DNA from: Segatella copri
GTDB lineage: Bacteria; Bacteroidota; Bacteroidia; Bacteroidales; Bacteroidaceae
DNA: 64,000 nucleotides
NCBI RefSeq assembly: GCF_026015295.1
Contig: NZ_JAPDUW010000001.1
Coordinates: 2,108,001-2,172,000, forward strand
Direction: 5' to 3'
Part shown: positions 20,676-38,904 of the stretch, piece after piece
How the letters are laid out: every line of letters begins with the position of its first letter
Numbering within the stretch: the stretch's first letter is position 1
Program-made: the position numbers and the translations under genes
The notes under the pieces: model-generated
Told to the model about the DNA's origin: nothing
The model's input: the letters and a program-made list of their open reading frames with translations, nothing else
Database searches by the model: none

Positions 20676-20851
20676 AGACTTTTTCTACAATATCAAGCAT
20701 AAATTCCCAAAAATTATTGCTTTTTGCTGCAAATTTATCATTTTTGCTTACTTTTCTGCAAGAATATGCAGAAAATTGGAGAAAAATAGTTGCTATTGCG
20801 TTTGGCAGTTCAAAAGAAGAATGCAAGCATCCTCATAAAAAATATCAGGAA

Positions 20852-20882
20852 ATCGTGCCTTGGATTATATTTAAGGCACGAT
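20852..20882 (-). terminator. Terminator of the archaemetzincin/L,D-transpeptidase genes
   Basis: A perfect 10-bp stem (ATCGTGCCTT at 20852-20861 with AAGGCACGAT at 20873-20882) lies 20 bp past the stop codon. A T-rich tract follows on the minus strand. Confidence 0.75.
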
Positions 20883-20901
20883 AGAGTACTGGAAAATTGA
20901 A

Positions 20902-21588: not shown

Positions 21589-21600
21589 AGAATATTCTTT

Positions 21601-22251: not shown

Positions 22252-22257
22252 AATAAT

Positions 22258-22266
22258 GCAAAAGTA
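22258..22266 (-). promoter_or_regulatory. -7 promoter box of the L,D-transpeptidase-like gene
   Basis: Minus-strand TACTTTTGC ends six bases before the chosen ATG, which suggests a leaderless or near-leaderless transcript. Confidence 0.5.
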
Positions 22267-22346
22267 GAAAAAAATAAGCAAGTAATGATGCTATCCATAC
22301 GTGGATTGTATCAAATACTCGCTTATGTGTATGAAATCATCAATGC

Positions 22347-23129
22347 CTACAACATCAAATCCTTGATGGTTGTACCATTCATGAATCTGCTTAAATCTAC
22401 CCTTTCTCCAATACCATGCAAATGTCCGGTTTCTGAATACTGCCAGATATTGCACTTTCCTCTGCCGTCGATAGAGGGTTGTCGGGAGTTATAATTGGCG
22501 ATGAAGAGATAATAACGATTGAACTTCGCCCCCATCTCCTTATTATAGAAGTTCTCGTTGCTATAGATGATAGGATACTTGCCATAGTGTTTCTTCACCA
22601 AGTCAGCAAACACCTGTATGCTATCCTGCAGCTGTCGTCCCTTCCATCTTCCCTGAATGCCTTTCTCCTCCACATCCAATACAGGAATCAAGTCCTGCTC
22701 ACTCTTCTTCACCATCTTTTGGAAATCCCGGAACTGAGCAGTTGCTGAAGAGCCGGCAGACATCAGATGATAAGATCCTACCTTCAACCCATATTTACGA
22801 GCCAGTCTGATATTTCGGCGATAATGTCGATCCACATATCCCTTACCATGTGTAGCTCTGATATAAACGAACTTGATTCGCTTGTTCTTCGCTATTTCCT
22901 TCCACTTGATAACTCCATTGTGTTTCGACACATCAATGCCGTCATACCCGCCATAAGTATAAGGTTGCCCTTTCAATCTATCAACGAACACATCAGAATA
23001 AGATGAAGCGATGCCCAACCATCGCTTCACCTTATATGGCGACACCACATACATGATTCCCAGACCAATACCAGCCAAAACGACCAGGCTGCCTAAGGAA
23101 ACCAAAGTATATTTTAATCCTTTCTTCAT
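22347..23129 (-). CDS. Glycoside hydrolase family 25 lysozyme
   Basis: Membrane-anchored muramidase of 260 residues. One N-terminal helix (about residues 8-28) precedes the GH25 barrel. Catalytic features are GIDVSKHNG (Asp66), RATHG and LDVEE (Asp152, Glu154 as the DxE pair), plus the C-terminal WQYSETG. Probable role in peptidoglycan turnover. It lies 95 bp before the L,D-transpeptidase-like gene in the same direction, giving a cell-wall cluster. Confidence 0.92.
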   Translation of the reverse strand: MKKGLKYTLVSLGSLVVLAGIGLGIMYVVSPYKVKRWLGIASSYSDVFVDRLKGQPYTYGGYDGIDVSKHNGVIKWKEIAKNKRIKFVYIRATHGKGYVDRHYRRNIRLARKYGLKVGSYHLMSAGSSATAQFRDFQKMVKKSEQDLIPVLDVEEKGIQGRWKGRQLQDSIQVFADLVKKHYGKYPIIYSNENFYNKEMGAKFNRYYLFIANYNSRQPSIDGRGKCNIWQYSETGHLHGIGERVDLSRFMNGTTIKDLML

Positions 23130-23281
23130 TACATTTTATCTTTTAATTGTTTTCAGGGGGACAAAGATAGTGAATTTATCCGAAACAGCATAGAAAGTTG
23201 GGGGATAATTGTATGAAATGGGGGGCTGAAAGTACGAAACTCAAATTCTTTAGGATTATTCATAAGAAAAGCGAAAAAAAC

Positions 23282-23314
23282 TTTGGTACTTTCAAATATT
23301 AATCGTAATTTTGC
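23282..23314 (+). promoter_or_regulatory. Promoter of the small hypothetical gene at 23353
   Basis: TTTG (23282-23285), 20 bp, then TAATTTTGC (23306-23314). Similar in spacing and flanks to the promoter at 40246-40277. Confidence 0.75.
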
Positions 23315-23352
23315 AACAAATAAGAGTAACCAAAATTAAGGAGGATTACAAT

Positions 23353-23631
23353 ATGACTAAAATAATGTCAAACTCAAAAGAACGACTAAACGATAAAGCC
23401 CAACGCTTTTTCGAGGATAGCTGTACTGTTCAAGAACCTACAGTTGCCTATCGTCACGAATATGCAACAGAGGCTCATAACGAATCCGAAGAATATCCTT
23501 TTATGACATCATGCAATAATGACGAGTTGGCGAATCATGTCTTAGCTCGTGAAGAAGAATATGCAAGAACAGGCAACGCCGTTGACTTTCTAGAAATGAT
23601 GGCTGATTTCAAAAACGAATTCGAATGGTAA
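23353..23631 (+). CDS. Small acidic hypothetical protein
   Basis: A 92-residue, charged, soluble protein (MTKIMSNSKERLNDKAQRFFED...FLEMMADFKNEFEW). A clear AAGGAGG at 23339-23345 sits 7 bases before ATG 23353, so the longer TTG-started frame is rejected. A canonical promoter precedes it. No domain was recognised. It faces the caspase gene convergently, with 20 bp between the stop codons, and marks the end of the minus-strand signalling island. Confidence 0.7.
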   Translation: MTKIMSNSKERLNDKAQRFFEDSCTVQEPTVAYRHEYATEAHNESEEYPFMTSCNNDELANHVLAREEEYARTGNAVDFLEMMADFKNEFEW

Positions 23632-23651
23632 AGATACGAGTATTTTATCTT

Positions 23652-24371
23652 TTACCACTTCATCACCGCCATATTCCCATCAAACTTACCCCACATTACT
23701 GGATGTTGACGATTCCCTGATGCTTCTACTACTCCCTGATGTACGAAGTTATAAATTTCCTTAGCCGTGATAACTCTATCCTTGTTTGTATCAGCACCAC
23801 CTCGCAAGCCACGTTCCAAGAACACAGTAAACAGGCTATTCTTGAAACCTGTCTGTCTCGGAGTTTCTAAGGATTTCTCCGTTGAACGAGAAGAAAGGAA
23901 GAACATCACATTCTCTTTAGAATAGTTAGTATTCCTCTTATTCGTATTTCTCATTTTCCCTGCAAAACAAGCATCCACGAATATCATTTTCTGCTGAGCT
24001 TTACTCTGTCTCATGATGCTCAATACGGAAGAGTAATACAAAACTCCATCGTAACACACCAATCCACCAGGCACACCATGACCACTAAAGTATAGGATAA
24101 TAGCATCTGATGGCGAAGCCTTGGCAAATGTATTACGCATTGCCGTACATACCTTTTTGATCGTAACGTCTGAATTGACAAAACAATCAACCGTAGCATT
24201 ACCATTCTTGGTAAAGATGCCCGATATGGTCTTGGCATCATTCGCACTTACCCGAAGGTCGTTCTGACGACCGGGATAATCGGCGATGCCCACGCTAACG
24301 ATATAATTTCTTGCTGGCAATGTTGGTATTGCCAGCAAGAAGATAAAGAGAGAAGATAATAGTCGCTTCAT
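23652..24371 (-). CDS. Secreted caspase-family (C14) cysteine protease
   Basis: Metacaspase-like protease of 239 residues with a signal peptide (MKRLLSSLFIFLLAIPTLPA), so the catalytic domain should be exported. The His-Cys dyad is intact: His98 in YFSGHG and Cys135 in FVDACFAG. A C-terminal DTNKDRVITAKEI segment looks like an EF-hand-type calcium loop. The gene starts 2 bp after the stop of the kinase-FISUMP gene and must be co-translated with it. This makes it a candidate output of the kinase island. Substrates are unknown. Confidence 0.9.
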   Translation of the reverse strand: MKRLLSSLFIFLLAIPTLPARNYIVSVGIADYPGRQNDLRVSANDAKTISGIFTKNGNATVDCFVNSDVTIKKVCTAMRNTFAKASPSDAIILYFSGHGVPGGLVCYDGVLYYSSVLSIMRQSKAQQKMIFVDACFAGKMRNTNKRNTNYSKENVMFFLSSRSTEKSLETPRQTGFKNSLFTVFLERGLRGGADTNKDRVITAKEIYNFVHQGVVEASGNRQHPVMWGKFDGNMAVMKW

Positions 24372-24373
24372 TA

Positions 24374-25987
24374 TTACTCACAAATAGGTCTAATAGAACG
24401 CAAAGTCAAGATTGGCTCATATGTCAAATCTGAATCTTCCTCATTGAAGTATAAATAATAAGCATTCAATCCATGCCCCCTACTTGAACTCCAATAATAG
24501 CCAAAGGAATCTTTACGATAGATACCATAATCACTCTTTCTACCTGCGCCTGGCAAAAAGATACTTTTACCAGAAGGACCTGTAACCTTGCAACCTGTTG
24601 TCCCATTGTAAGTAATCCAACTCCAACGACATCTATCTATCAGTTCTTTAAACTGCTTACGAGTTGGAGTTTTCAATTTTCCTTCAGAAAGAAGATAAGC
24701 CACATCAAACTTGGTACCTGCAATTTCCTTATCTGTTGGAAATCCATCCAAAGAATGACCATTCATTCCATTTGCCCAACGATAATACTCCCCATACTCT
24801 TCAGGTTTAGTGGCACCTAAATTACAACCACACCATTTTACACTAAGTCCGAGATCAACAACAGCAGAAGTATCGATATTACTTTCTTGAACCATGTAAT
24901 CGGTAATATACATCGTAGCCTCTTTATCTTCTTCTTTCAAGAATTTGGGTTTTGGAACATCTAGCGGTTTGGATGACACCTTTTCTTGCACACGTTCAAC
25001 CTCTTGTGGCTCAGAATCTTCTTTAATTGCAGTTGACATATATAGAGTCTCTTCAGATTGAACCTTCTCGTTTTTTACATGAACTGCCTGAGCATTCTCC
25101 GTACCCAGCGCATCCAAGAAATCCACTATCGTATGATATCGTTCCTTTCTTCTTGGTTGCATTGCCTTTTCAATAACTCGCTTCGTCTGCTCACTTATGC
25201 CCATCTGCAATTCCGGCAAACCTTCATCAAAGACTGCAGTTGCCTCAGGAGGTGTTTGACCAGTCAACATCTTGAACATAGTAGCTCCCAAAGAATATAT
25301 GTCTGTTTCTGGAGAGAACATTCCCAATCCTCCCACACGAGATTGCTCAATAGGTGCATAGCCTACGCTCACTCCAACAGGACTACTCGTAGTCTGTTCA
25401 CCAGCTACATCATAGTTTTTTGACATACCAAAGTCTATCAAGACCACATCCCCATTCTGTCGCAACAAGACATTGCCAGGCTTCACATCCAAGTGGTTCA
25501 TATTATGGGCATGGATATACTGCAAGGCAGATGCTATCTGTCTCGTATATTTCAAGGTCTCATCTTCCGATAAAGAACCATTCTTCTCTATCAAATCCGA
25601 CAATGAGCCACCATCGATGTACTCCATGACATAATAAGCGGTACCATTCTCCTCAAACACATCCAACACCTTTATAATATGAGGGTGAGTCAACTTAGAG
25701 ATATTCTTCGCTTCCTTGATAAACTTCTGGCGAAACTTCTCCACCAATTCAGCACTTCCTGTAGAAGGAACTGTCACCATAGATGATTCTTCATCACGAT
25801 TACAGAGTTCCTTCATAAAGAATTCTTTGATTGTCACTTCGATTTCTGCATCAATCGTGCCCAAGGCACCTGCTACAGAAACCTTCTGCTTAGCCAAATA
25901 GGTGATTCCGAAACCACCTTGACCGAGCACTCGCTCAATTTTGTATTTGCCATTGCAGAGAATGGCGTTATTGCTTAGTTGATTCAT
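24374..25987 (-). CDS. Ser/Thr protein kinase with C-terminal FISUMP-like domain
   Basis: Hanks-type kinase, 537 residues. The N-terminal kinase domain has GQGGFG (22-27), Lys54 in TIKEFF, catalytic HLDVKPGN (Asp167), DFG (185-187) and an activation-segment APIEQ. A linker of about 80 residues contains two threonine motifs, EETLYM (Thr314) and EATMYI (Thr358). Residues 375-537 form a FISUMP/FGE-sulfatase-like domain (VDLGLSVKW...YYRWANG...RSIRPICE), a fold used elsewhere for ligand binding. No transmembrane helix is seen. It lies 10 bp after the IS-split FISUMP gene and 2 bp before the caspase gene. Confidence 0.92.
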   Translation of the reverse strand: MNQLSNNAILCNGKYKIERVLGQGGFGITYLAKQKVSVAGALGTIDAEIEVTIKEFFMKELCNRDEESSMVTVPSTGSAELVEKFRQKFIKEAKNISKLTHPHIIKVLDVFEENGTAYYVMEYIDGGSLSDLIEKNGSLSEDETLKYTRQIASALQYIHAHNMNHLDVKPGNVLLRQNGDVVLIDFGMSKNYDVAGEQTTSSPVGVSVGYAPIEQSRVGGLGMFSPETDIYSLGATMFKMLTGQTPPEATAVFDEGLPELQMGISEQTKRVIEKAMQPRRKERYHTIVDFLDALGTENAQAVHVKNEKVQSEETLYMSTAIKEDSEPQEVERVQEKVSSKPLDVPKPKFLKEEDKEATMYITDYMVQESNIDTSAVVDLGLSVKWCGCNLGATKPEEYGEYYRWANGMNGHSLDGFPTDKEIAGTKFDVAYLLSEGKLKTPTRKQFKELIDRCRWSWITYNGTTGCKVTGPSGKSIFLPGAGRKSDYGIYRKDSFGYYWSSSRGHGLNAYYLYFNEEDSDLTYEPILTLRSIRPICE

Positions 25988-26167
25988 AACCTCAGCACTA
26001 TTTAGCTTTTACAGTTCTAACTGGTATTCCGTATCCTCCAAAAAGAGTGGTCTTATATATACCTTTCTCGTTATAGATATCAGGTACTTGTATCTCTTTG
26101 GGATTATCACTTTCATATACTTGCCAAAAATACGCATCAAAAGAGTCTTCAAAATCTTTAAGATGCA

Positions 26168-27758
26168 CCTCAAATCCGCAACCTATAGGGTTTAGTGGGA
26201 TTTTGCTTGCAAAGCGACAAAATTCATTTTATTGTACATATTTCTTGCACAACAGAAATGTCGCAGACACAAAATCCCCTTACCCCATAAAGCGACTTGA
26301 GGTAATACGCTGGTTTAACCAGAAAAGCATGGTCTTTAACCAAAGTCTGTCTTGAACAGGTTGGCATAAGCATTGTTGTCTGAGTAAATGTTCAATACAT
26401 GCCTACGTGATGTCTTAATCCATTTCGCAGGAACAGAGATGAACTTGAAAACAAAGGTCTTGATTCTGCTGGTGGCACGCAATCCAAATTCATGGGTTTT
26501 CAATCTCTGCATAATAGCTTTGTAGAAGTTTCTGATGAGAGCTGTCATAAGCAGGAATACAGTATTCTGTGCCATGAACGATTTTGGCAATCGATTCCAG
26601 CCAAAGCCATTGTTCATGTCATCGAAGATGCGTTCCTTGCCACCACGAAGATTGTAGAATTCCACGATGTCTCTTGCACTCGACTTGTAATCGTTAGTCA
26701 GTATACATCTGTAGGTATATTCGCCTTCCCAAATGTCAAGGTATCCATCTATTCGCCTTTGTCTCTGTATGACAAGACGATACGGTTTTCCTTTCCATTT
26801 CTCAACAAGGATAGAATTCAACTCAAACTCAATACCGTTGATTTCAACAGTTTTCCATCCAGTTAAGGCAAACATGGAATCGTAGAAAGAAGAGCATCTG
26901 TTGGCACGAATATAAAAATGCCTGCAATGAGCCTCTACCATATCTACGATTTCCTCCGAACATGAGCCGCAATCCATGCGGGCACGAGAAATATATATTT
27001 CCGAAGCCTCCAATCGCTTGAAGATTCTTTCCAAAGTCTCTCTTTGGTTGAAGCGCACGTTTGTGTTACCGTCTCTATTTTCAATACCGACAATCATGTC
27101 GTTAATGACTGCCACCCCTGGACTATAGCCCAAGAACTTCTTGTAGGTTGGTTTTGCATCATACTTCTCTGTTTCAATGAACTGATGGTCAAAGTCAAAA
27201 TCATACTCTTGACCGGATTTCAATTGACCAGTAGCAAGCAGGGCATTGACCAGTAAGCAGTTCATCTTGTCTGCAGTATTGAAATCATAGGATTTGCCAG
27301 AAGCAGACTTATAGGTGATGCTCTTAAAAGTCAGTTCTTCGATAGCACGTAATATGGTGTCTGCGCTGCAAGTGCGAAGAGTTGGATGAAGAGACAAATG
27401 TTTCATCAGGTGAGTTGTAACATCCTCAATACATGAGCCACCACAAAGATATACGCACATCAGAGAGCGTAGAATCTCGCTATATTGATAACCAAACATA
27501 GTGCATCTCAATCCCAAGGTGGAATCTATGGTTTGAGCTAAAAGAGCATCAAATTGCTCCATAATCGAAAAAATTCCCCCAAAAGGAGTGAGTTTCTCAG
27601 ATTTTATTTGTATCTTTGCCATGTCATATTAGAGTTTTGCTTGTCTTCTTTTCGCAACACTAAGGTAAGTGAAAATTCTGACATGGAAAAATCCTGGGTA
27701 ACTTTTTGTTGCTCAGGCACTTATAAATAATGTTAAATATAGTGTTGCGGAATTAAGG
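26168..27758 (-). mobile_element. IS1380-family insertion sequence, complete
   Basis: A 1591-bp element with imperfect terminal inverted repeats, CCTCAAATCCGCAAC at 26168 and CCTTAATTCCGCAAC (minus strand) at 27758. They share 12 of 15 bases, including TCCGCAAC. The target duplication ATGCA is present on both sides (26163-26167 and 27759-27763). One intact transposase gene is carried. The element is inserted in a FISUMP-domain gene in the same orientation as the host operon. Confidence 0.9.
26336..27622 (-). CDS. IS1380-family transposase
   Basis: DDE transposase of 428 residues, intact. N-terminal segment LTPFGGIFSIMEQFDALLAQ and the central FDHQFIETEKYDAKPTY and RMDCGSCSEEIV segments match the family. 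The C-terminal YNLRGGKERIFDDMNNGFGW is the expected YREN-like region with the catalytic Glu. There are no frameshifts, so the element could still be mobile. Confidence 0.93.
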   Translation of the reverse strand: MAKIQIKSEKLTPFGGIFSIMEQFDALLAQTIDSTLGLRCTMFGYQYSEILRSLMCVYLCGGSCIEDVTTHLMKHLSLHPTLRTCSADTILRAIEELTFKSITYKSASGKSYDFNTADKMNCLLVNALLATGQLKSGQEYDFDFDHQFIETEKYDAKPTYKKFLGYSPGVAVINDMIVGIENRDGNTNVRFNQRETLERIFKRLEASEIYISRARMDCGSCSEEIVDMVEAHCRHFYIRANRCSSFYDSMFALTGWKTVEINGIEFELNSILVEKWKGKPYRLVIQRQRRIDGYLDIWEGEYTYRCILTNDYKSSARDIVEFYNLRGGKERIFDDMNNGFGWNRLPKSFMAQNTVFLLMTALIRNFYKAIMQRLKTHEFGLRATSRIKTFVFKFISVPAKWIKTSRRHVLNIYSDNNAYANLFKTDFG

Positions 27759-28199
27759 ATGCATATAACCATATCCCTTAAACGTAATGGCATTGCCATT
27801 AGGTCCAAGTACAATGTAGGCGGTATTACTACCATCACTTTTTCTACTGATTTCACAAAACTCTTGAAGTTCATCGACTTGTTCTTCTGTCGGAATATTA
27901 TATTTCAGAGCTTTTGGATATGGCAAGAACAGTACCTCATCCCCATCTTTTACATAGTCCGAGGCCCATAAAGTTCCACTTGGAAGCCCTAAGTCTACAT
28001 ACTCAACACCTTCCAATGCAGAATCCTTAGCTACCATATCGACACCATCTTGATAGCCAGCATTGTAACCTGCCATATAAGCATCAGCTACAACTTGTTT
28101 TAACGCTTCTGCTACTTTACCTTCTGCGTATAATTTTGCATTATCTATATTACTCATATTCTTCTTTTCCCTTTAATAAACCGACAAAAGTTAATCACA

Positions 28200-28766
28200 T
28201 CAAACAACAAAATCATAACGACACAATGCCTTTTTTATAAGATGGTTACAATCTAGCAGCCCATTCTTAAAACCAACAGTATTAATAAGTACCTTTGAAG
28301 TTACTTTGACTTTCTTACCAGCCAAGAGTTCAACCCCTTTCTGAGTGTCACTTTTTACGATATTTCCCTCTTCATCTTTCTCTGGTAAATTACGAACTTT
28401 CAAAAACTCGTCAACTGCAGTTCCTTCTGGGTAAAAAATATTTGCAGTGCGATATAAATATCCATGATCAACAGTATTCCATTCAAAGATTGGGTTCTGA
28501 AATGTGGTTGGAAACCAATTTATTGCACGTTCTGTTCCATCAGGGCTATGCACTTCAATAACCAAGAACTCATAGTCTTTTCCCATAAAGTGCTGACTAC
28601 CTATTCTATCTCCCATCTCTTCCAATGGTGGAAAAATGAGAATATCACCTTCATTTAGAGCCGCACTCCCACCAAAGATTGGTTTCATACTATTTGAAAA
28701 TACTCCCAATCCCATTTTCATATTTGCATTACCAGCATTAGTCGAAACTCTTTCACTAATTGTCAT
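28200..28766 (-). CDS. Hypothetical protein of the signalling island
   Basis: A 188-residue soluble protein with no signal peptide or membrane helix and no recognised family. It begins MTISERVSTNAGNANMKMG; the middle is beta-rich (EGDILIFPPLEEM, YEFLVIEVHSPDG) and the C terminus is short and basic-hydrophobic. It sits 42 bp before the split FISUMP gene and 194 bp after the intact one, all on the minus strand. This suggests it works with the FISUMP proteins, but nothing in the sequence shows how. Confidence 0.7.
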   Translation of the reverse strand: MTISERVSTNAGNANMKMGLGVFSNSMKPIFGGSAALNEGDILIFPPLEEMGDRIGSQHFMGKDYEFLVIEVHSPDGTERAINWFPTTFQNPIFEWNTVDHGYLYRTANIFYPEGTAVDEFLKVRNLPEKDEEGNIVKSDTQKGVELLAGKKVKVTSKVLINTVGFKNGLLDCNHLIKKALCRYDFVV

Positions 28767-28960
28767 AATTAACCTTTTAAATTTTATATTATATTATAAT
28801 TTTCAATATCAAACTTTTAGTATCAATCATTCCACAGACTCCTGCTATAGAAACAAACTACTAGAGCAAGTAGATGAATTCGAAATCTCCTTATCCAAGT
28901 ATACACTGGATTTTGTATTTGACATTGCTAAAACTGTGTTATACTTACTTCATGCCAATT

Positions 28961-29530
28961 TCACGGCTTTGCTTTTACCTTTCTAACAGGTATTCTATAT
29001 CCAGAGAAAAGGCAGTCTGTACCTAAAACCCCACTAGAATAGAAATATGGCACATGAAATTCCTTCGGATTATCACTATTATAAATCTGCCAGAAAAACG
29101 GCAAATAGTTACTACACTTCTCAAGAATGTCTATATATCCATATCCCTCAAAAGTGACAGAATTACCATTAGGTCCCAAAACCATATATATATATTTATC
29201 AGCTGCAGAATCATTCATGCTAATAATCTTGCAATACTCCCCAAGTTCATTAACTTGCTCTTCTGAAGGAATATCATATTTCAGAGCTTCAGGATATGGT
29301 AAGAACAGCACCTCATTCCCATCTTTTACATAATCCGAAGCCCATAATGTTCCACTCGGAAGTCCCAAGTCAACAAACTCAGTCTCTTCCGATACAGAAT
29401 CCTTAGCTACCTTACCAATACCATCTTGATAGCCTGCATTGTAACCCGCTAGATAAGCATCTGCAACAACTTGACTTAACGCATCAGCAACCTTTCCCTC
29501 AGCGTATTTTTTAGCTTTATCTATATTCAT
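28961..29530 (-). CDS. FISUMP-domain protein with conserved N-terminal helix
   Basis: A 189-residue protein. Residues 1-40 form an alanine-rich helix (KKYAEGKVADALSQVVADAY then AGYNAGYQDG) shared almost word for word with the split paralogue. The FISUMP-like domain runs from VDLGLPSGTLWASDY to YRIPVRKVKAK. The start is set at ATG 29530 because MNIDKAKKY aligns with the paralogue's first residues. ATG 29542, 2 bp after the kinase stop, would add four codons and cannot be excluded. There is no signal peptide, so it is likely cytoplasmic, like the kinase that carries the same domain. Confidence 0.8.
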   Translation of the reverse strand: MNIDKAKKYAEGKVADALSQVVADAYLAGYNAGYQDGIGKVAKDSVSEETEFVDLGLPSGTLWASDYVKDGNEVLFLPYPEALKYDIPSEEQVNELGEYCKIISMNDSAADKYIYMVLGPNGNSVTFEGYGYIDILEKCSNYLPFFWQIYNSDNPKEFHVPYFYSSGVLGTDCLFSGYRIPVRKVKAKP

Positions 29531-29544
29531 ATTTTTAATCATAT

Positions 29545-31299
29545 CTAAAAATCTTCATCGAGATTCATTATTTGCTGAAGAGAACTTTTTTCACCAGACA
29601 CATATATTGTCATATATTCTCCAGAAGCTCCAATATCTAAATGAATAAGCATATAACCATTTCCTAAATGATAGAAATCATCCCTTACCGGGTATTGATT
29701 ATATGTTTTCAACTTTTTACCAGACACAGATTTTATTATAGAGTTTCTGATTTTATCCTCGTAATTATCATTAAAAGAACCGACATTAATGATCATCATC
29801 ATTGCTCCAGCATGAGGGCCCTTCAAATACATATTACATTCTCTTGTTGAACTATTACTGAGAGTCATCCCCATAATAGAGAACTTTCCTCTATAAATAG
29901 CTCCAAAGGAGCCGTAATTATCATACTCACCGCCATTATCTTCCATTTGTTTCAAGGAAGAATTGGAACTAAACAATCCAAAATCCACACCATATTCTCC
30001 ATTGTTACTCTCCGAAAGAAATTCTTTTATCATCTCCCCTATATCTGTACCCTGATATGACTTTTGGACTTCTACTTGCAAGGTTCCATCCTTCTTATCG
30101 TCTTCTTTTGGGGCTGCCGAAGTTGCAGCAACAACATTCTCTGATATTGCTGTATCAACATTACGATTATTAGGCTGATTTGCCGTTGCTGATTGTTTCT
30201 GATATATCAAAAAAACAACAAATAAACTTCCAATTATCCCCACAACTATAACCAAAGTGATTAGTAACCCTTTTACTTTACTATTCTTTGTAGGAACTAT
30301 TGACTTAGACAAACTATTATCTTTTGCAACTCGCTTTGAGTTCAGATAAAGGGTGTCCTCATTCGTAGAAAAATGTCGAGATGAAGAAGGTTGAGTATTA
30401 AAGTGCACTTTCTCGATTTTTTTTGTTTTAAATTCTGCAACGTTTTGAGGCCTCTTCAACCTTTTCTCTTGCATCATCCAAACTACCAACGTCTTCATTT
30501 CCTCAGAGACATTAGGCATCGGGAGGGCGAGATGCTTGTCCTCTGTCTCGTCTTCAGAAAGATCAGAAACTGATGGTGGGTCTTGATTGGTAAGTAACTT
30601 ATACATAGTGGCACCAAGGGCATAAAAGTCTGTCCATGGACCGAACTTATCATAGCTCTGCGCCATCTGCTCACTAGGGGCATAACCATTCGTATAACTG
30701 ATACCAGTGCTCATCGTAGCACCACCTACCGTACTCTGCTGCTTACTTGCACCAAAGTCTATCAACTTGACTACATTATGACTATCCACCATAATATTGG
30801 CTGGCTTGATGTCAAGATGGAACATACCTTCGTTATGGATTGCCTCAAGACCATCCAATATCTGATTCAAGTAATTGCGAACCTCAGACTCTGCCAAAGG
30901 TGCATTGGTACGCTTCAAACGTGCAGATAGATTTTCTCCATCCACATAATCCATCACATAATACGCAGTACCATTCTCCTCAAAAAGGTCATAGACCTTG
31001 ACAATATGAGGATTACTGATACTACGAAGACGGCGAGCTTCTTTCTTAAATTTCTCTCGCTGTTGCTCAAAACTATTGGTATTCTCGGCATTGCTTACGC
31101 TAATGGTTGTACTATTACCATCACGCTGGCACACTCCTTTTACAAAGAACTCTTTGATGGCATAAGTCTCATCAAACTCAATGTTCTTTGCTAAATAGGT
31201 GTTGCCGAAACCACCTGAAGCCAAATAGCTTTCTATCTTGTAAGTTCCGTGTAGGATGGTTCCTACCTGGAGCATATTTTGATTATTAATTTCGTCCAT
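29545..31299 (-). CDS. Membrane Ser/Thr protein kinase
   Basis: Hanks-type kinase, 584 residues. The kinase domain has SGGFG (28-32), Lys49 in AIKEFF, HLDIKPAN (Asp163), DFG (181-183) and the GYAPSEQM segment. A linker carries the motif EDTLYL (Thr316). One transmembrane helix at about 344-367 is followed by an extracytoplasmic domain of about 215 residues with no recognised family, probably a sensor. The start overlaps the PP2C stop by 14 bp, so kinase and phosphatase are translationally coupled. Confidence 0.93.
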   Translation of the reverse strand: MDEINNQNMLQVGTILHGTYKIESYLASGGFGNTYLAKNIEFDETYAIKEFFVKGVCQRDGNSTTISVSNAENTNSFEQQREKFKKEARRLRSISNPHIVKVYDLFEENGTAYYVMDYVDGENLSARLKRTNAPLAESEVRNYLNQILDGLEAIHNEGMFHLDIKPANIMVDSHNVVKLIDFGASKQQSTVGGATMSTGISYTNGYAPSEQMAQSYDKFGPWTDFYALGATMYKLLTNQDPPSVSDLSEDETEDKHLALPMPNVSEEMKTLVVWMMQEKRLKRPQNVAEFKTKKIEKVHFNTQPSSSRHFSTNEDTLYLNSKRVAKDNSLSKSIVPTKNSKVKGLLITLVIVVGIIGSLFVVFLIYQKQSATANQPNNRNVDTAISENVVAATSAAPKEDDKKDGTLQVEVQKSYQGTDIGEMIKEFLSESNNGEYGVDFGLFSSNSSLKQMEDNGGEYDNYGSFGAIYRGKFSIMGMTLSNSSTRECNMYLKGPHAGAMMMIINVGSFNDNYEDKIRNSIIKSVSGKKLKTYNQYPVRDDFYHLGNGYMLIHLDIGASGEYMTIYVSGEKSSLQQIMNLDEDF

Positions 31300-32455
31300 T
31301 CTTTGTTGTATCTTCTTTTGTAGAATCTTGTATTGTTGTATCTGTCTCTAAATTTTGCTGGCTATTAAGCTCTTTCACGGTCACTATAGAATCCTCTAGA
31401 AGAGAATCCAGCAAAGCTGCCTCTGCTTTATGCTTGCTATAGTAGCCATAACCAGCCATGCCAACAGCAGCCAATACCACTAAGGCAACAAAGCCCATGA
31501 AGAGAGATTTCTTTCTTTTCTGCTTATTCACCAAATCAACGACTACACTATCAGGAACAGGCGGCGGTGTACCAGCAGGCTTTACGACTTCAACATCAGA
31601 AGAAGCAGTCACCTCTTCCACATCTGGCTTGATATTCAAAGCATTGCATTTCGCCGTAAGCTCTTCATTTACAAGACTCACATCAGCCTCGTCATGACTC
31701 ACCTCTTTGATGTGTACTATATAAGCAGAATGATTATCTTTATTATCTGAGGTTTCTGAAATCAGCATCTGGCGCTTCTCTTCATCACGAACATTCGCAA
31801 CAAAGACATCCAACAGCTCCTCATCCTCCATCTGTTCCAACATGCCGTCAGAACAAATGTAGAAGTAATCACCTGGCTGAATATCAGAAATATGGATAAC
31901 ATCAGGTTTCGGATGATTTCTATCTCCAGCTATCATCGCACGGGTGATGACATTTTTCTGTGGAAATGTCTTCATCTCCTCATAGGTCAACTCACCTGCC
32001 TGATAAAGATCATACACCAGGGAATGGTCACGACTCTTATATAATATGGTATGCGAAGATGGACGGAGATGGTATATTCTACTATCTCCAATGTGAGCTG
32101 CCGTACATCCATTACTGTGAAAATACAGCAAAGTTAAAGTTGTTCCCATCTGACGGGAATCTCCCGCAATAGCCAGTTTATCCAGTTCTTCGTAGGCATA
32201 CGCCAAAGCATCAGACAGCAACTTATCTTCCAAGCCTTCGGAAGCAACTGCATGCTGCAACAAAAACGAAGAAAGACTTTTGCAAATACTTTGGCTTGCC
32301 ACCTCTCCATGCTCATGTCCACCCATACCATCACAAAGCAAAAACAAACGGTCATTCTCCGTAGCTTTGCCCTCTATTGGATAGATGCTATCTTCCTGGT
32401 TCGCCCTTTTACCCAACTCATGGATAGCTAAAGGCTGATATATCTTGATTCTCAT
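31286..32455 (-). CDS. PP2C-family Ser/Thr phosphatase with C-terminal membrane helix
   Basis: Metal-dependent protein phosphatase, 389 residues, the expected antagonist of the neighbouring kinases. Metal ligands are visible in RANQEDS (Asp22), LCDGMGGHEHGE (Asp42), CSDGMLE and DNHSAYIV. A proline-rich linker and one helix (about 315-338, SLFMGFVALVVLAAVG) anchor it, leaving a short charged tail outside. It overlaps the kinase gene by 14 bp and follows the zinc ribbon-FHA gene by 8 bp. Confidence 0.93.
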   Translation of the reverse strand: MRIKIYQPLAIHELGKRANQEDSIYPIEGKATENDRLFLLCDGMGGHEHGEVASQSICKSLSSFLLQHAVASEGLEDKLLSDALAYAYEELDKLAIAGDSRQMGTTLTLLYFHSNGCTAAHIGDSRIYHLRPSSHTILYKSRDHSLVYDLYQAGELTYEEMKTFPQKNVITRAMIAGDRNHPKPDVIHISDIQPGDYFYICSDGMLEQMEDEELLDVFVANVRDEEKRQMLISETSDNKDNHSAYIVHIKEVSHDEADVSLVNEELTAKCNALNIKPDVEEVTASSDVEVVKPAGTPPPVPDSVVVDLVNKQKRKKSLFMGFVALVVLAAVGMAGYGYYSKHKAEAALLDSLLEDSIVTVKELNSQQNLETDTTIQDSTKEDTTKNGRN

Positions 32456-32463
32456 TGTTAGCT

Positions 32464-33084
32464 TTATTTTTGATGATAAACAACAGTTGTGTTACCCATC
32501 TTGATGATACTTCCTTCTGTCAAGACGAGCTGGTCACCCTCGTTCAATAATTGTCCATTCACATAACTGGCATTTTTATTATGGTAGTTAGACACCACCA
32601 CCCTAACCTTGTCCGTAGAAGCCTTAATTACCTGGATGGCAAGATGCTGACGGCTCATATATCTATCATCAGTAACTATCTGTACAGTTGCCTGCGAAGT
32701 AGTAGCCTTGCGACCTATCACATTATTGCCGAACCCTAACGGATACTTCTTACCACCATAGAGCAAATAACCAGGAGTAACCTCTTCTTTCTTGCCTGCA
32801 AGGATTGTTTCATCAGATTGAGAAGGAGAAGAGGAATGCCCCACGTAAAGAGTTTCTCCATTATCTCGATTCACATACTGAGTCTCACCATTGCTGTTAC
32901 CAACATATTCTGTTTCCCCAAAAGATTGCGGAGTTGCAGCATGTTGCTGTGAGAACATCACTCTCAGCTGAGCTTTACATTGAGGACAAGTAATCACCTT
33001 AACCGCTTCGTTTTGAGAATTTCTCACGTCAAGCAATACACCGCAACTCGGACATTTGATTCTTTTAATTTCCATTGCTACCAT
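32464..33084 (-). CDS. Zinc ribbon-FHA protein with repeated threonine motifs
   Basis: A 206-residue cytoplasmic protein. An N-terminal zinc ribbon has CPSC (11-14) and CPQC (33-36). A linker then holds GETEYV (Thr58), GETQYV (Thr68), GETLYV (Thr78) and DETILA (Thr93); the first three are spaced exactly ten residues apart. The C-terminal FHA domain (about 118-203) has the phosphothreonine-binding residues of VIGRK, SRQH and NASYVNG. ATG at 33075 is an alternative start. It could be both a kinase substrate and a phosphothreonine reader. Confidence 0.9.
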   Translation of the reverse strand: MVAMEIKRIKCPSCGVLLDVRNSQNEAVKVITCPQCKAQLRVMFSQQHAATPQSFGETEYVGNSNGETQYVNRDNGETLYVGHSSSPSQSDETILAGKKEEVTPGYLLYGGKKYPLGFGNNVIGRKATTSQATVQIVTDDRYMSRQHLAIQVIKASTDKVRVVVSNYHNKNASYVNGQLLNEGDQLVLTEGSIIKMGNTTVVYHQK

Positions 33085-33110
33085 CTATTTTAATCAATTT
33101 TAATCAATGT

Positions 33111-34058
33111 TTATGCCATCTGGATATCAGCATCAGACATATAGTCTGGCATATCAGGAGCAACATCAGGATTCTCTAAGGATGCTGTTTGGAGATTTGG
33201 ATCAGCAGAATCATCAACTCCGGTATCAGCGAAATCACTACCACTTGGAGTTATCACTTGTCCTGTATGCAAATCAACAGCTTCACCAACGTCAATACTT
33301 CCATTGCCATTGGCATCACAAATCGCAACATCAGGATTTCCATCTTGATCAAAATCTACCACACTCACTTCCTGGCCATCCACGTCGAAAACACCCACTG
33401 TAGCCATGGAGCCATCAGCAAGCTGAACTTCACCCGCATTAACCAAATGAACATCTGCATTTTGGTCATCAGCCACCTGCACATCACTTGCCTGATGCAA
33501 ATTTGCATCATTGTGAGCAACAGATACATCCTGGTCTGCATGAGAAGAATGAGATACCATAGCAACATCTTCTGCTTGATGAGGAGCTGCATTCATTTCT
33601 TCAGCACGTACTTCTGGCTTTACAGCCTGAGCATAGTCGTTCTTTTCTGCATCTGTCATGTTGTTCCACTCGTCCTCAGTATAAGTACTATAGATATTAC
33701 CATGCCAATGGAAAGCGCCACCAGGACCAACTTCGGCTCTAGCGGCATCAAAAGCCTCCTTAAAGCTCTGCTCATCATGACTCTCTGCTACCTTGATAGA
33801 GGCATTATCATTAGCTGCAGCAGCATCTTGCGATGGATTCTCCCCTTCCGGTTTTGTATCGGGAGCTTCTTCCGTACCTGCAGCAAAGGTGTCTGTGGCA
33901 TACATAGCACTTGCACCTAATAAAATACCAGCAGCACCACCTACCGCAACTTTCTTCCAAGTTGCCTTATCAGCTGCGTTCTGAGTTTTATCTTTACTTT
34001 CCTGTCTTACTTCAGGATGTATATTATCGAAATACAATGTTTCTTCATTCTGTGCCAT
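33111..34058 (-). CDS. Membrane-anchored acidic repeat protein of unknown function
   Basis: About 315 residues. The N terminus MAQNEETLYFDN carries the shared threonine motif (Thr7 in this numbering). It is followed by a basic stretch and one helix (VAVGGAAGILLGASAMYATD), so the rest should be outside the cytoplasm. That part is acidic, rich in H-Q-A-D-V phrases, and has two calcium-loop-like segments (DFDQDGNPD and DANGNGSID). ATG 34064 would add two codons. A -7 box TATATTTGC (minus, 34087-34095) lies just upstream. No family name is recognised. Confidence 0.75.
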   Translation of the reverse strand: MAQNEETLYFDNIHPEVRQESKDKTQNAADKATWKKVAVGGAAGILLGASAMYATDTFAAGTEEAPDTKPEGENPSQDAAAANDNASIKVAESHDEQSFKEAFDAARAEVGPGGAFHWHGNIYSTYTEDEWNNMTDAEKNDYAQAVKPEVRAEEMNAAPHQAEDVAMVSHSSHADQDVSVAHNDANLHQASDVQVADDQNADVHLVNAGEVQLADGSMATVGVFDVDGQEVSVVDFDQDGNPDVAICDANGNGSIDVGEAVDLHTGQVITPSGSDFADTGVDDSADPNLQTASLENPDVAPDMPDYMSDADIQMA

Positions 34059-34086
34059 AATCATACTTTTTAAAATTACAACTGAT

Positions 34087-34095
34087 GCAAATATA
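34087..34095 (-). promoter_or_regulatory. -7 promoter box inside the signalling island
   Basis: Minus-strand TATATTTGC lies 29 bp before the acidic membrane protein's start, in a 100-bp gap. It may split the island into two transcription units. Confidence 0.5.
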
Positions 34096-34164
34096 GTGAA
34101 ATAACAAATAGATAGGTACTTTTTTTGTGCTCATTACACAAAACCTATCTTCTATTGTACAAAA

Positions 34165-34854
34165 TCACTTTTTAATTTTAGCCTTGCAATAAGGACAAGC
34201 CTCATTCTGCATTAAAACTTCATAAGACTGAAAGCCCAGGAAGTGATGACAATGAGGACAAACATAATGCTGCTGAAACTCTTCAGTCAACTGCTTCTGC
34301 CTTAACGGTCCTTTAGAAGAATCCTTATATGCTTTTACAGTAAAGCCTACAGAAATCAAAATACCTAAGAGATACAAGCCTATATAAAGAGGAGTCTCTC
34401 TAAATTCTGGGAAAATGATGCTCAAAGCGATGGCTCCCATGGTAATCAAACCAGTAATGCCACGAAGAGAATTAAACTTGCGGTCAGCAATTTGCTGATC
34501 AAGTTTATGCTCATCATATTCTTCCCAAACACGCTGCAATGGACGAAAATCTACCATTTGAGGAACAAAACTCTTTATCCAATCCCAACTAACCAAAAAT
34601 TTGCTTGGACCAAGTTCTATTTTATCCTTTTCCATGATAGTCTTTGCCATTATTTCCACTCCATTGACAAAAGTAACGTTCTGAGGTTTTAGATTCGTAA
34701 TTCTATAAGAACCATCAGGATTAATGGTCAAACTACAGTGTTGACGACTCACAGTCATAGGAACACTTCCAGCAACCCCAAAAGTCTTGGATTGCTGCCC
34801 CATCGTTATTCTCAATTGAGATGTACTAGCATCACGTCCAATGATTAATTCCAT
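34165..34854 (-). CDS. FHA-transmembrane-zinc ribbon protein
   Basis: A 229-residue protein. The N-terminal FHA domain has IIGRDAS (about residues 4-10), SRQH (36-39) and NVTFVNG. Two membrane helices lie at about 134-173 (GLITMGAIALSII and YIGLYLLGILISVGF). The C-terminal zinc ribbon has CPHC and CPYC. Both FHA and ribbon are likely cytoplasmic, so it may recruit phosphothreonine proteins to the membrane. It follows the LytTR gene by 21 bp. Confidence 0.88.
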   Translation of the reverse strand: MELIIGRDASTSQLRITMGQQSKTFGVAGSVPMTVSRQHCSLTINPDGSYRITNLKPQNVTFVNGVEIMAKTIMEKDKIELGPSKFLVSWDWIKSFVPQMVDFRPLQRVWEEYDEHKLDQQIADRKFNSLRGITGLITMGAIALSIIFPEFRETPLYIGLYLLGILISVGFTVKAYKDSSKGPLRQKQLTEEFQQHYVCPHCHHFLGFQSYEVLMQNEACPYCKAKIKK

Positions 34855-34875
34855 AAAATTCTTTGCTTGATTAGT

Positions 34876-35247
34876 TTATTTTTTAGTTATGAGTAAATCC
34901 TTCATTTGCTTCAAGGCTTCCTTAGAAATACCTAAAGCAAAAGCAAAATGCTCATAATCGGATAATATCAACTGTTGCTTTTGCGTATTGACCTGATAGA
35001 TGTAGCCAGTGTTTATGATAAAGCGCTTACCCACCCGCATAAAAATACTCTTGCAATCTACAAGATGCTCGGCCAAATACTTCTCCATCTGAGTCAAATT
35101 CAGACAAACAACAGTCTTCAGCTTGTTAATAGTAACAATCTGTGTATAATTGCCATCTCCTTCGAAATAAACAATTTTGGAAACATCTAATCTTAAGAGT
35201 TCCGTCTTTGTATTGAATACGATAAATTGACTATCCATATTTACCAT
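34876..35247 (-). CDS. LytTR-type DNA-binding regulator without receiver domain
   Basis: A 123-residue protein that is almost entirely a LytTR domain (IVYFEGDGNYTQIVT, FMRVGKRFIINTGYI). It lacks the usual N-terminal receiver domain, so input must come from another partner or from abundance. It is the first full-length gene of the minus-strand island and the obvious candidate for its local transcriptional control. ATG at 35238 is an alternative start. Confidence 0.88.
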   Translation of the reverse strand: MVNMDSQFIVFNTKTELLRLDVSKIVYFEGDGNYTQIVTINKLKTVVCLNLTQMEKYLAEHLVDCKSIFMRVGKRFIINTGYIYQVNTQKQQLILSDYEHFAFALGISKEALKQMKDLLITKK

Positions 35248-35300
35248 TTACATCGCTGACTTGTTCCCAGAAGTAGCTATCAGTCATTAAGTTTTCAATG

Positions 35301-35381
35301 AAAAAGCGTGGGACTATTGCTTATTACCGGATAGAGGTTGTGGAAGGACCCGTCAGCAAGTAATAATGCAATAGCCCACGC
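35301..35381 (-). ncRNA. Structured RNA element or terminator upstream of the LytTR gene
   Basis: The arms 35306-35327 and 35360-35381 pair as three consecutive 7-bp helices separated by one bulged base on each side, with a 32-nt apical loop. On the minus strand the helix ends in CCCACGC followed by five T (35305-35301), as in an intrinsic terminator. It lies between the 38-codon ORF and the LytTR gene. It may end that short transcript, control read-through into LytTR, or be the 3' end of a small RNA. No known RNA family was recognised. Confidence 0.5.
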
Positions 35382-35444
35382 CATAGAGTATATTAACATC
35401 TTCTTCCATAGAGAAAAAGATACAATAATCCTTAGACGTGAGCA

Positions 35445-35561
35445 TCATTGCCTATTTATCGTTAGCAGACTTTGAAACTTCCACATTTCTATCGCAAGAT
35501 AACGTTCAATACGCTCATTCACTAGAGCCTTCATCGTGCCCGTTCTTTTCCGTTCACTCAT
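35445..35561 (-). CDS. Candidate 38-residue protein at the head of the signalling island
   Basis: The frame starts at ATG 35559-35561 and reads MSERKRTGTMKALVNERIERYL...SLLTINRQ, basic and probably helical. It begins about ten bases after a canonical promoter (35571-35603), so the message would be nearly leaderless. No ribosome site is visible. It could be a regulatory peptide or only part of a small RNA. Its position upstream of LytTR suggests a local regulatory role, but no homologue is recognised. Confidence 0.4.
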   Translation of the reverse strand: MSERKRTGTMKALVNERIERYLAIEMWKFQSLLTINRQ

Positions 35562-35570
35562 AACTCTATT

Positions 35571-35603
35571 GCAAAAGTAAGAAATCTTTTTAATACCGCC
35601 AAA
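35571..35603 (-). promoter_or_regulatory. Canonical promoter at the head of the signalling island
   Basis: Minus-strand TTTG (35603-35600), 20 bp, TACTTTTGC (35579-35571). Confidence 0.75.
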
Positions 35604-35746
35604 CTTTTCCTCTATTATTTCTTCCAACAGGCTTACTTTTATGAAATTTCCACCAAAAAGGCATTGAAGTTTGCCACTGCTGAAAAAGATAATGCTTCCA
35701 CATTTCCAATCCATGACAACCTCAATGCCTATATCCTTAAACGGCT

Positions 35747-36163
35747 TTACAAATTAAAGTACACTTTACCGAAAGGCGCCGTGTTCGCCTTCCACTCAAA
35801 ATTATTGGCTACAACCTCTCCGTCTAGGTTTCTAACCACCTTGCTAACGAATGCATGTGTTCTCAACAAACTATCCAAAGGACCACCATAATAACCAACA
35901 ACTGTCAATGATCTGCGTCCACCACTATACGTTTCTCTCACACGAATCTTGACTCTTACAACTTGATTGTTCTTAATATAATAAGCACCAACATCAGTAT
36001 ATTCCTCCGTAGGCTGAGGCATCTGCGGCATCTCCAAGCCAAATGATGGCACAGAATATTGCTGGGCAGGTGGATTAGTATATACTGGTTTATACTCTAC
36101 AAACTGAGCATTTACACTCATTACACTTAGCATCATGGCTAAAATCAACATTACCTTCTTCAT
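35747..36163 (-). CDS. Secreted hypothetical protein
   Basis: A 138-residue exported protein with signal peptide MKKVMLILAMMLSVMSVNAQ. A proline-rich stretch (about 35-55) precedes a beta-rich domain (DVGAYYIKNNQVVRVKIRV...VVGYYGGPLDS). No family was recognised. Its promoter is canonical: TTTG (36277-36274), 20 bp, TACTTTTGC (36253-36245), minus strand. Probably monocistronic. Confidence 0.75.
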   Translation of the reverse strand: MKKVMLILAMMLSVMSVNAQFVEYKPVYTNPPAQQYSVPSFGLEMPQMPQPTEEYTDVGAYYIKNNQVVRVKIRVRETYSGGRRSLTVVGYYGGPLDSLLRTHAFVSKVVRNLDGEVVANNFEWKANTAPFGKVYFNL

Positions 36164-36362
36164 ACCTTATTATATATTAAAGGGTTATACTTCATGTTCC
36201 TCGTTCCACGATTTTTTCTTTTCTACCGCTTCCCGATTACGAGCGCAAAAGTAAGAAGATTATTTCTATCAGCCAAATATCTAAACATACCTTGTATGAA
36301 ATGCCATTCTGTATGTACCAAATGACAAAGAGGAGGCGTCATAAGTCTAAATTACAGTTGGC

Positions 36363-36446
36363 GCATAACAGTTGACCTACGCATGCACATCACCTGTTGT
36401 GCAAGCGCATATCAGCTGCTATGCAAGCGCACAACAGCTGTTGTGC
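36363..36446. repeat. Array 1: four palindromic units at exact 22-bp spacing
   Basis: Units of 18-20 bp begin at 36363, 36385, 36407 and 36429. The consensus is GCACAWCAGCTGYTGTGC; the last unit lies in a perfect 20-bp palindrome (36428-36447). The first is the most degenerate. Each unit is joined to the next by AAGC-like spacers. Confidence 0.75.
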
Positions 36447-36600
36447 GACCGGAGATACTAACTAACTCAAAAACATATACTATCTTTTCTAACAACTTAT
36501 ACTATGTTTTCCAACAACATATCAGTAACATTCCAACAAAAAAGGGTGAATCATTTACTTATGACACACCCTCTTTGCTAAATCAGACACGCAACTGATC

Positions 36601-36675
36601 TTATCTTATAATATTATACTCAAACTCATAATCCCCATTCTTCAGCCATTCGGGAACATCTTCCCCATTTTCCAT
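36601..36675 (-). CDS. Candidate 24-residue microprotein
   Basis: The frame ATG 36673-36675 to TAA 36601-36603 encodes MENGEDVPEWLKNGDYEFEY and four more residues, an acidic aromatic-rich peptide. AGGAGG (36692-36687) lies 11 bases upstream. A canonical promoter precedes it: TTTG (36747-36744), 20 bp, TATTTTTGC (36723-36715). Promoter, ribosome site and ORF in correct order make a real gene plausible, although a decayed C-terminal fragment is the alternative. Confidence 0.45.
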   Translation of the reverse strand: MENGEDVPEWLKNGDYEFEYNIIR

Positions 36676-36714
36676 AAGGCCTTATTCCTCCTTTTTTTAG
36701 TTCAAATTAAAATT

Positions 36715-36747
36715 GCAAAAATACCTCCCGTCAATATTTATAACCAA
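36715..36747 (-). promoter_or_regulatory. Promoter of the candidate 24-codon gene
   Basis: Minus-strand TTTG (36747-36744), 20-bp spacer, TATTTTTGC (36723-36715). Confidence 0.65.
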
Positions 36748-36843
36748 AATTCATATACCTACAAGTTTGGAATCTAGCGATAAAAACAAGAGGATTGAAA
36801 GGCTGGGATTCCTTGTTTTCTGCTCTATATTAAGAACAAGCCC

Positions 36844-36952
36844 TATAGTTGTACGACTATAAAGTTACAGTTGTACGACTATACATGCTATGGTTGTACA
36901 ACTGTAGAGTTATGGTTGTACAACTATAGGGGTTATAGCCGTACAACTATAG
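36844..36952. repeat. Array 2: five palindromic units at 22-23-bp spacing
   Basis: Cores at 36848, 36870, 36893, 36915 and 36938 match GTTGTACAAC. Units 3 and 4 are perfect palindromes there, and flanking TATAG/CTATA extends them to 18-20 bp. Spacing alternates 22, 23, 22, 23. The architecture resembles array 1, but the core is different. Confidence 0.8.
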
Positions 36953-37153
36953 ATTTTCCTCAACGGCATCATCTTGTCAAGAAATCACAAATACCTGATT
37001 ATCAACAAGTTTCTATTTCTCTTCATATTTACGATATTCTCAAAGAAATAATAAGCGTCTGAAAATACGAGAATTTCAAGCAAGCTAATGTAAAAAAGTT
37101 TCATTCTTAACAACGCCACATCACTACATCTTCGGGATATTCTTACAGATTAC

Positions 37154-38740: not shown

Positions 38741-38870
38741 ATTGCTGCCTTTTTAATTTCTTTCGGCAAAGTTACAAAAAATAATGATACAAGCAAAGGA
38801 ATAGCCCGAAAAAAATAACGAGATTGCAAAATACCATATTTGTGGGATTGTTGACAAGGAAAAAAAATAA

Positions 38871-38879: not shown

Positions 38880-38904
38880 CTTTTGAAAATAATAGTTTAA
38901 AATC

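Follow-up and report, generated by a model that had tools for sequence, protein, structure and literature searches.

An accessory island of Segatella copri encoding a conserved kinase–phosphatase–FHA gene set with a shared candidate threonine tag and an optional secreted caspase

The window analysed here is a stretch of 64,000 nucleotides from Segatella copri (assembly GCF_026015295.1, contig NZ_JAPDUW010000001.1, positions 2,108,001 to 2,172,000). It carries an island at 23209..36303 (a unit without assigned strand) that encodes two Ser/Thr kinases, a PP2C phosphatase, two FHA proteins, an acidic protein here called ACID, a LytTR regulator and a secreted caspase-like peptidase. Kinase, PP2C, the two FHA proteins, ACID and LytTR are a set recurring together in Bacteroidales, and a short tag of the form acidic–Thr–x–hydrophobic is enriched in three classes of their proteins. 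The 12-bp direct repeat TTGTATGAAATG was found at both ends of the island (23209-23220 and 36292-36303), and 11 of its 12 bases are present once in the empty site of the nearest genome, G001. That genome lacks window positions 23221-36291, about 13 kb, with flanks on both sides 96-97% identical to those of the window. On the right, G001 matches the window from 36293 to 43082 with one insertion. On the left, the adjoining match spans 180 bp only (23041-23220), and further left window 20795-23040 is swapped for other genes in G001 (about 5.7 kb) before the match returns. The island is therefore accessory, gained or lost as a unit. The segment at 20795-23040 holds M54-like, L,D-transpeptidase and GH25 genes, and this slot beside the island is variable too. 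Within S. copri, locus L004 matches the island at 23654-24320 and 30452-33258 with about 94-95% DNA identity, the L004 stretch ending there; between these two segments its genes differ from those of the window.

All of the genes listed by the first-pass annotation of this DNA were recovered in place on the minus strand, and Pfam supports the LytTR, FHA (twice), PP2C_2, kinase and Peptidase_C14 assignments. The list missed a transposase at 26336-27622, whose insertion sequence (IS) element splits one of the FISUMP-like genes. From the right-hand end, the island starts with a LytTR DNA-binding protein of 123 residues (34876..35247; PF04397, 40.3 bits) and a protein of 229 residues with an FHA domain, two transmembrane (TM) helices called by hydropathy and a zinc ribbon (FHA-TM-Zn; 34165..34854; PF00498, 39.3 bits), in which the FHA motifs GR and SRxH are both kept in the alignment. 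ACID follows, with 317 residues (33111..34064). It gave nothing above cut-off in Pfam, and its layout was taken from family alignments and an AlphaFold2 model: a tagged N-tail, a glycine-rich presumed span, a domain at residues 90-148, a second domain at 201-275 with D-rich loops that by eye look like calcium sites, and a conserved C-tail. The N-tail (residues 1-36; 33957..34064) carries the tag EETLYF at Thr9, delineated by its threonine column and by tag enrichment. Next comes a zinc ribbon–FHA protein of 206 residues (Zn-FHA; 32464..33084; PF00498, 40.6 bits), whose linker (32749..32949) has tags at Thr58, Thr68, Thr78 and Thr93 by pattern scan.

The PP2C phosphatase (389 residues; 31286..32455; PF13672, PP2C_2, 48.3 bits) has one TM helix at 317-335, and its gene overlaps by 14 bp that of the membrane Ser/Thr kinase (584 residues; 29545..31299; PF00069, 147.5 bits), which has a TM helix at 347-365 followed by a tail. 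The match of this kinase to its L004 counterpart is confined to residues 1-394, and the tails differ. Its juxtamembrane linker (30286..30444) carries the tag EDTLYL (Thr316) by pattern scan. The second kinase, of 537 residues and with no TM helix called, ends in a FISUMP-type domain (24374..25987; PF00069, 140.2 bits), and the same scan found EETLYM in its linker (24863-25132), the tag threonine being Thr314. The caspase-like peptidase of family C14 (239 residues; 23652..24371; PF00656, 67 bits), with a His98/Cys135 dyad, is encoded 2 bp from the kinase–FISUMP gene.

To determine how often these genes occur together, core-protein profiles built from the window and L004-L008 were run on neighbourhoods found through ACID. 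ACID was found in 17 of 100 genus genomes, in 9 of 295 order genomes (9 of 177 genera), and, at 80% completeness, in 66 of 397 genus genomes, some of which had also been in the earlier samples. In the first round 30 regions were fetched, 28 of them with ACID above 30 bits (L073 and L077 fell below and are outside the 66 loci counted here). The second round took 40 regions, mostly the strongest unseen ACID matches, and 38 were kept, L119 and L120 being contigs of L005 and L006. The near-duplicates L063, L064 and L066 were left out of the held-out part of the first round; the first tag test, the fixed-pattern test, the strand and order count, the 86-row alignment and the decay counts were run with near-duplicates included. 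Across the 66 ACID loci (28 and 38 in the two rounds), Zn-FHA was present in 61 (26+35), FHA-TM-Zn in 55 (23+32), kinase in 46 (24+22), LytTR in 44 (16+28), PP2C in 42 (21+21) and caspase in 29 (16+13), counts that are lowered by several loci at contig edges and, for the kinase, raised by a few reduced or distant kinases of 30-40 bits. Co-direction was seen for 397 of 400 core genes across 70 loci (ACID above 35 bits, caspase-anchored L005-L008 included). The genes typically run in the order LytTR, FHA-TM-Zn, ACID, (caspase), Zn-FHA, PP2C, kinase, with 21 ACID–caspase and 20 caspase–Zn-FHA adjacencies at median gaps of 9 and 8 bp, respectively. The first-pass annotation had proposed a complete phosphosignalling circuit and a search for its conserved co-occurrence; the grouping proved conserved in the genus and order genomes, and the recurring set shares a candidate phosphoacceptor tag, as described below, both of which support the circuit proposal.

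A database protein 97% identical to the ACID of the window represents 7738 member sequences, so ACID is frequent among sequenced samples. ACID is also encoded, at 97.5% identity, by MT838606.1, a human faecal record of 5 kb that bears the label Bacteriophage sp. and is probably mislabelled bacterial DNA. Other arrangements were also observed. Genome G063 has two island-type kinases (L190 9108-14344 and L189 8058-10274) with no other core gene within 20 kb; after one of them come two similar proteins, each about 550 residues long. At L053 (5068-9742), a stretch that starts at a contig end, two kinases each end in an FHA domain preceded by Sel1-like repeats, and the stretch is without PP2C or Zn-FHA; the same genome has both on contig L083. 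At L060 (2029-3494) a gene pair that looks AbiE-like by eye lies immediately ahead of the island LytTR gene.

In the window the Zn-FHA linker carries four copies of the tag, and the ACID N-tail and the linkers of both kinases carry one apiece; these segments are mutually non-homologous. In a first test on L004-L085 and the window with 500 shuffles, kinase linkers, Zn-FHA linkers and ACID tails contained 35 (shuffle mean 9.7, maximum 21), 29 (3.7, maximum 10) and 17 (3.4, maximum 9) tags, respectively. Control counts were 2 in PP2C linkers (shuffle mean 5.3), 2 in LytTR (5.2), 16 in FHA-TM-Zn (15.2), 21 in caspases (14.1, maximum 27), 15 in kinase domains (39.7) and 80 in cargo (109.2). Because the pattern had been set after viewing the window and nearby loci, it was frozen and rerun on 38 further loci. 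Kinase linkers, Zn-FHA linkers and ACID tails then contained 18, 7 and 16 tags against shuffle means of 5.3, 1.9 and 3.8, respectively, and 0 of 1000 shuffles equalled or exceeded the count in any of the three classes. PP2C linkers contained 0 (3.0), LytTR 2 (6.4), FHA-TM-Zn 17 (13.7) and kinase domains 13 (18.4). Thirty kinase linkers from genomes without ACID contained 0 tags against a shuffle mean of 3.0, in a set in which L002 and L162 are the same kinase, domain ends are approximate (clearly too early in L167 and L180) and the two island-type kinases of G063 were left out.

The Thr9 column of ACID was followed in an alignment of 86 rows (the window, 72 of 120 listed proteins from 640 matched, and 13 loci): 78 rows have Thr, 5 are gapped and 3 have a different residue, and the rest of the tail was variable. 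With contig-edge loci set aside, the strict tag was present in ACID at 26 of 42 kinase-bearing loci versus 0 of 12 kinase-less loci. The tag is a candidate phosphoacceptor common to three protein classes. Mycobacterial PknA sites are reported to favour acidic residues ahead of Thr and a hydrophobic one at +3 (PMC7164672); the island tag is alike in placing acidic residues before and a hydrophobic residue after Thr, but the latter stands at +2. In pneumococcal StkP, threonines of the juxtamembrane segment become phosphorylated in vivo, yet they do not match the substrate motif of StkP itself (PMC12077195).

Joint decay of these features was seen in 15 islands that form one clade (SH-aLRT 99) within the kinase-bearing islands. 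The members retain the two FHA genes, and those examined for LytTR and ACID retain these too, the ACID of L085 being a weak piece only. In 11 of the 15, neither kinase nor PP2C was matched within the stretch examined. At L055, L139 and L144 a protein of 263-298 residues just past Zn-FHA, in the place of the kinase, has a reduced catalytic loop, keeps by eye the TM helix and a MORN-like tail (a Pfam MORN match in L144, below cut-off in L139) and contains a short kinase-domain piece below the Pfam cut-off, with no N-lobe visible; this stub looks like a reduced kinase, which points to loss rather than late gain. ACID of the clade starts almost at the glycine-rich segment, without the N-tail. FHA residues of the GR and SRxH type contact phosphothreonine. 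In FHA-TM-Zn, SRxH was found in 0 of 15 clade members (Ser alone in 6, His in 15) and in 36 of 44 kinase-bearing rows including the window. In Zn-FHA, SR is retained by 0 of 15 clade members, most of which are missing the GR...SRxH segment, and by 47 of 48 kinase-bearing rows including the window. Kinase-less loci outside the clade are mostly at contig edges, and SR in Zn-FHA is kept in 9 of 9.

The caspase belongs to the Peptidase C14 (caspase) clan, with PF00656 at 67 bits against a cut-off of 21.4 and the dyad present. His98 and Cys135 are invariant across six aligned caspases, and a signal peptide was seen by eye; therefore the substrate of the caspase should be in the envelope, and it may possibly be ACID itself. 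The best relative was found in S. copri iAQ1173 (93% identity). A search of 100 genus genomes gave 47 matches, and neighbourhoods were taken for the 17 at 118 bits or more (the other 30 were at 78 bits or less): 12 of the 17 lie in ACID loci, 4 beside FHA-TM-Zn relatives and 1 (L082) with no recognised partner. These data bear on whether the FHA–kinase operon is a real circuit in which the caspase is an independent passenger. The caspase was not found in 37 of the 66 ACID loci and stands at the far end of the operon in the window, as a passenger might. However, it usually lies within the operon, separated from its neighbours by the short gaps given above, 16 of its 17 closest relatives are in ACID islands or beside FHA-TM-Zn relatives, and its His and Cys are kept in 26 of 28 by pattern, so that we consider a passenger role very unlikely. 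The protease output claimed by the first-pass annotation stands as an optional part, usually encoded between ACID and Zn-FHA, and is not universal.

The emphasis of that annotation on a kinase–FISUMP fusion beside the caspase did not hold, as this arrangement is local and FISUMP is one among several interchangeable kinase tails. The FISUMP model TIGR02145 scored 15.6 bits on the fusion, under its cut-off of 41.65, but the protein can be aligned with the FISUMP-type tails that island kinases carry at other loci, and the label is retained in that sense; PF09603 matches 3 of 52 island kinases. Variable genes, here called cargo, lie between the two kinases of the window. FISUMP-like protein 1 (193 residues, no TM helix called; 28961..29542, minus strand) is only 18% identical to the FISUMP kinase tail in alignment, and an uncharacterised protein of 188 residues (28200..28766, minus strand) has no library match above cut-off. 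The 5' part of FISUMP-like gene 2 lies at 27753..28157 (minus strand), and its C-terminal codons (about 25999-26167) sit beyond the IS element. Neither of the two short FISUMP-like genes matched a FISUMP model in NCBIfam or Pfam. The IS942-like (IS1380) element, at about 26168..27759 (strand unassigned), encodes the DDE_Tnp_1 transposase named above and is 98% identical to plasmid records annotated as IS942-family transposase; close copies occur on Bacteroides and Segatella plasmids. Small open reading frames near the island edges (23311-23631 and 35747-36163) have no Pfam match. An AAA-ATPase_like and PDDEXK_9 gene adjoins the island at 37154-38740, with short matching pieces in the neighbouring G001 slot, and a protein that resembles its product by eye is encoded near the L080 island. 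For cargo in general, 78 proteins from 188 cargo open reading frames were scanned. Cargo varies by locus, and FGE-type, Sel1, trypsin-like and leucine-rich repeat proteins among it look secreted by eye.

Exchangeable kinase tails and cargo, together with clean presence or absence at one site and a patchy distribution (17/100 and 66/397 genus genomes in overlapping samples, 9/295 order genomes), would fit an anti-phage or other conflict system in which the kinase sensors detect invasion and the caspase or cargo kills or arrests the cell. Both kinases match PADLOC models (mad6 and PD-T4-6; best E 3.3e-61), the caspase matches the PADLOC caspase model (E 7.3e-7), and the 78 cargo proteins gave at least 3 PDC-S31, at least 3 PtuA and single other candidate or restriction models among the best 25 of 49 families. 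TerY-P-like kinase–PP2C modules are reported as defence systems (PMC11090510), and published conflict systems repeatedly include caspase and FGE-type domains (PMC7159879). However, the kinase and caspase matches may reflect shared domains only. The mad6 model has no cut-off, and under the curated cut-offs of NCBI the kinase–FISUMP protein, the only kinase to which the NCBIfam scores refer, reached 125.1 of 460 bits for NF047741 (MADS6 defence kinase), and the caspase 72.5 of 140 bits for NF047832 (EACC1-associated caspase). At E 0.01 no PADLOC model was matched by PP2C, ACID, LytTR or either FHA protein. The caspase is secreted, whereas an executioner of this kind would be cytoplasmic, and much of the cargo also looks secreted by eye. 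We consider a conflict function unlikely.

Parts of the island are shared with several described systems. The TerY-P triad, an add-on of conflict loci, comprises a TerY vWA protein, a PP2C and a Ser/Thr kinase fused to a zinc ribbon or OB fold, and like the island it unites a kinase, a PP2C and a zinc ribbon within a single operon (PMC11090510). The island has a PP2C adjoining a Ser/Thr kinase, but no vWA match among the window island proteins at Pfam E 0.01, no zinc ribbon/OB-fold fusion on the two window kinases, and none on the 52 island kinases among the matches listed (best 25 of 28 families). Its zinc ribbons are on the FHA proteins rather than the kinase, and it adds two FHA proteins, ACID, LytTR and the caspase. 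The ternary and caspase conflict systems of Kaur et al. 2020 draw on interchangeable parts that include caspase, FGE-type and FHA domains, as does the island, whereas the island core is kinase–phosphatase–FHA (PMC7159879). MoxR, vWA and STAND had no Pfam match in the window island. A YARHG outer domain occurs on kinases and on a secreted caspase, and the available text of that source describes no operon like that of the island (PMC3355149).

The island acts like a kinase–phosphatase–FHA switch, and among the definitions tested it agrees with those of the C14 clan and the kinase–PP2C pair only. Actinobacteria have PknB–PstP–FhaB sets of a membrane kinase with an outer domain, a PP2C and an FHA reader. 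The island resembles them in these three parts and differs in being accessory and in having the shared tag and the caspase. No PASTA match was found by Pfam in either window kinase, and the PASTA-kinase model NF033483 gave 174.2 of 450 bits on the kinase–FISUMP protein, below its cut-off. Kinase–phosphatase–FHA sets also control type VI secretion, through the threonine phosphorylation pathway of PpkA, PppA and Fha. The island follows the same kinase, PP2C and FHA logic at the inner membrane and adds the caspase and ACID. Its circuit might control the assembly or firing of an envelope machine or the secretion of surface proteins, with the caspase as a processing protease, and the membrane kinase, PP2C and FHA protein, the secreted-looking cargo, and the decay clade, which retains LytTR, FHA and ACID genes beside secreted-looking proteins, are consistent with this. 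However, one TatC was the only secretion family among the matches listed for the 78 cargo proteins (best 25 of 55 Pfam families; no search aimed at such families was made), no type VI families turned up among the general matches (no search aimed at type VI was made), and cargo changes from locus to locus. We regard this explanation as quite unlikely.

With confidence slightly better than even, we instead read the island as an inner-membrane phosphothreonine–FHA switch with exchangeable sensors and outputs, the periplasmic caspase being one output. Kinases with exchangeable tails would detect a signal and phosphorylate the tag in their own linkers, in the Zn-FHA linker and in the cytoplasmic N-tail of ACID. 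The two FHA proteins would read the phosphorylated tags and bring the parts together at the inner membrane, the membrane PP2C would remove the tag phosphates, and LytTR would tune expression. ACID would relay the state to the periplasm through its cytoplasmic tagged tail, presumed glycine-rich span and outer domains. The secreted caspase, once activated, would be the output in somewhat under half of the islands, and other secreted proteins would take this place elsewhere. These assignments are predictions from sequence and gene context.

Several observations weigh against this switch. Hydropathy calls no span in ACID, so that its membrane span is a presumption, and the AlphaFold2 model is poor outside the two small domains, with a mean pLDDT (predicted local distance difference test) of 58.2. 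The tag pattern was chosen after the window, L004-L008 and the kinase tails up to L083 had been viewed, many loci in the tag tests are related to one another, and the caspase control was raised in the frozen test (13 versus 6.1; 5 of 1000 shuffles as high). The strict ACID tag is carried by 3 of 10 kinase-less contig-edge loci and is missing from 16 of 42 kinase-bearing loci, several of which have near-variants (ENTI, EKTI). The joint loss of kinase, tail and FHA reading residues was probably a single event, and an independent-pairs test of joint decay was not significant. Near the island of clade member L135 lie kinases and a PP2C that are more distantly related (89-120 bits), and L062, outside the clade and not at an edge, has intact FHA motifs and a PP2C, with no kinase found in its 20 kb. 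The caspase, as noted, was not found in more than half of the ACID loci.

A more specific form of the switch is tentative, and we would not rely on it. The parts may form a signalosome in which multivalent phospho-tags on Zn-FHA, the kinases and ACID are cross-linked by FHA domains at the inner membrane and signal outward via ACID to switch on the periplasmic caspase, with strains exchanging cassettes of sensor tails and secreted outputs. A literature search, which covered few subscription journals, returned no account of this gene set. The new element is its likely wiring, through a tag common to the kinases, Zn-FHA and ACID. To our knowledge, bacterial caspases are rarely accompanied by a candidate upstream input. 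The island of S. copri has such a candidate input and a caspase in one operon, together with named putative phosphosites, a clade that lost them and a genome with the empty site.

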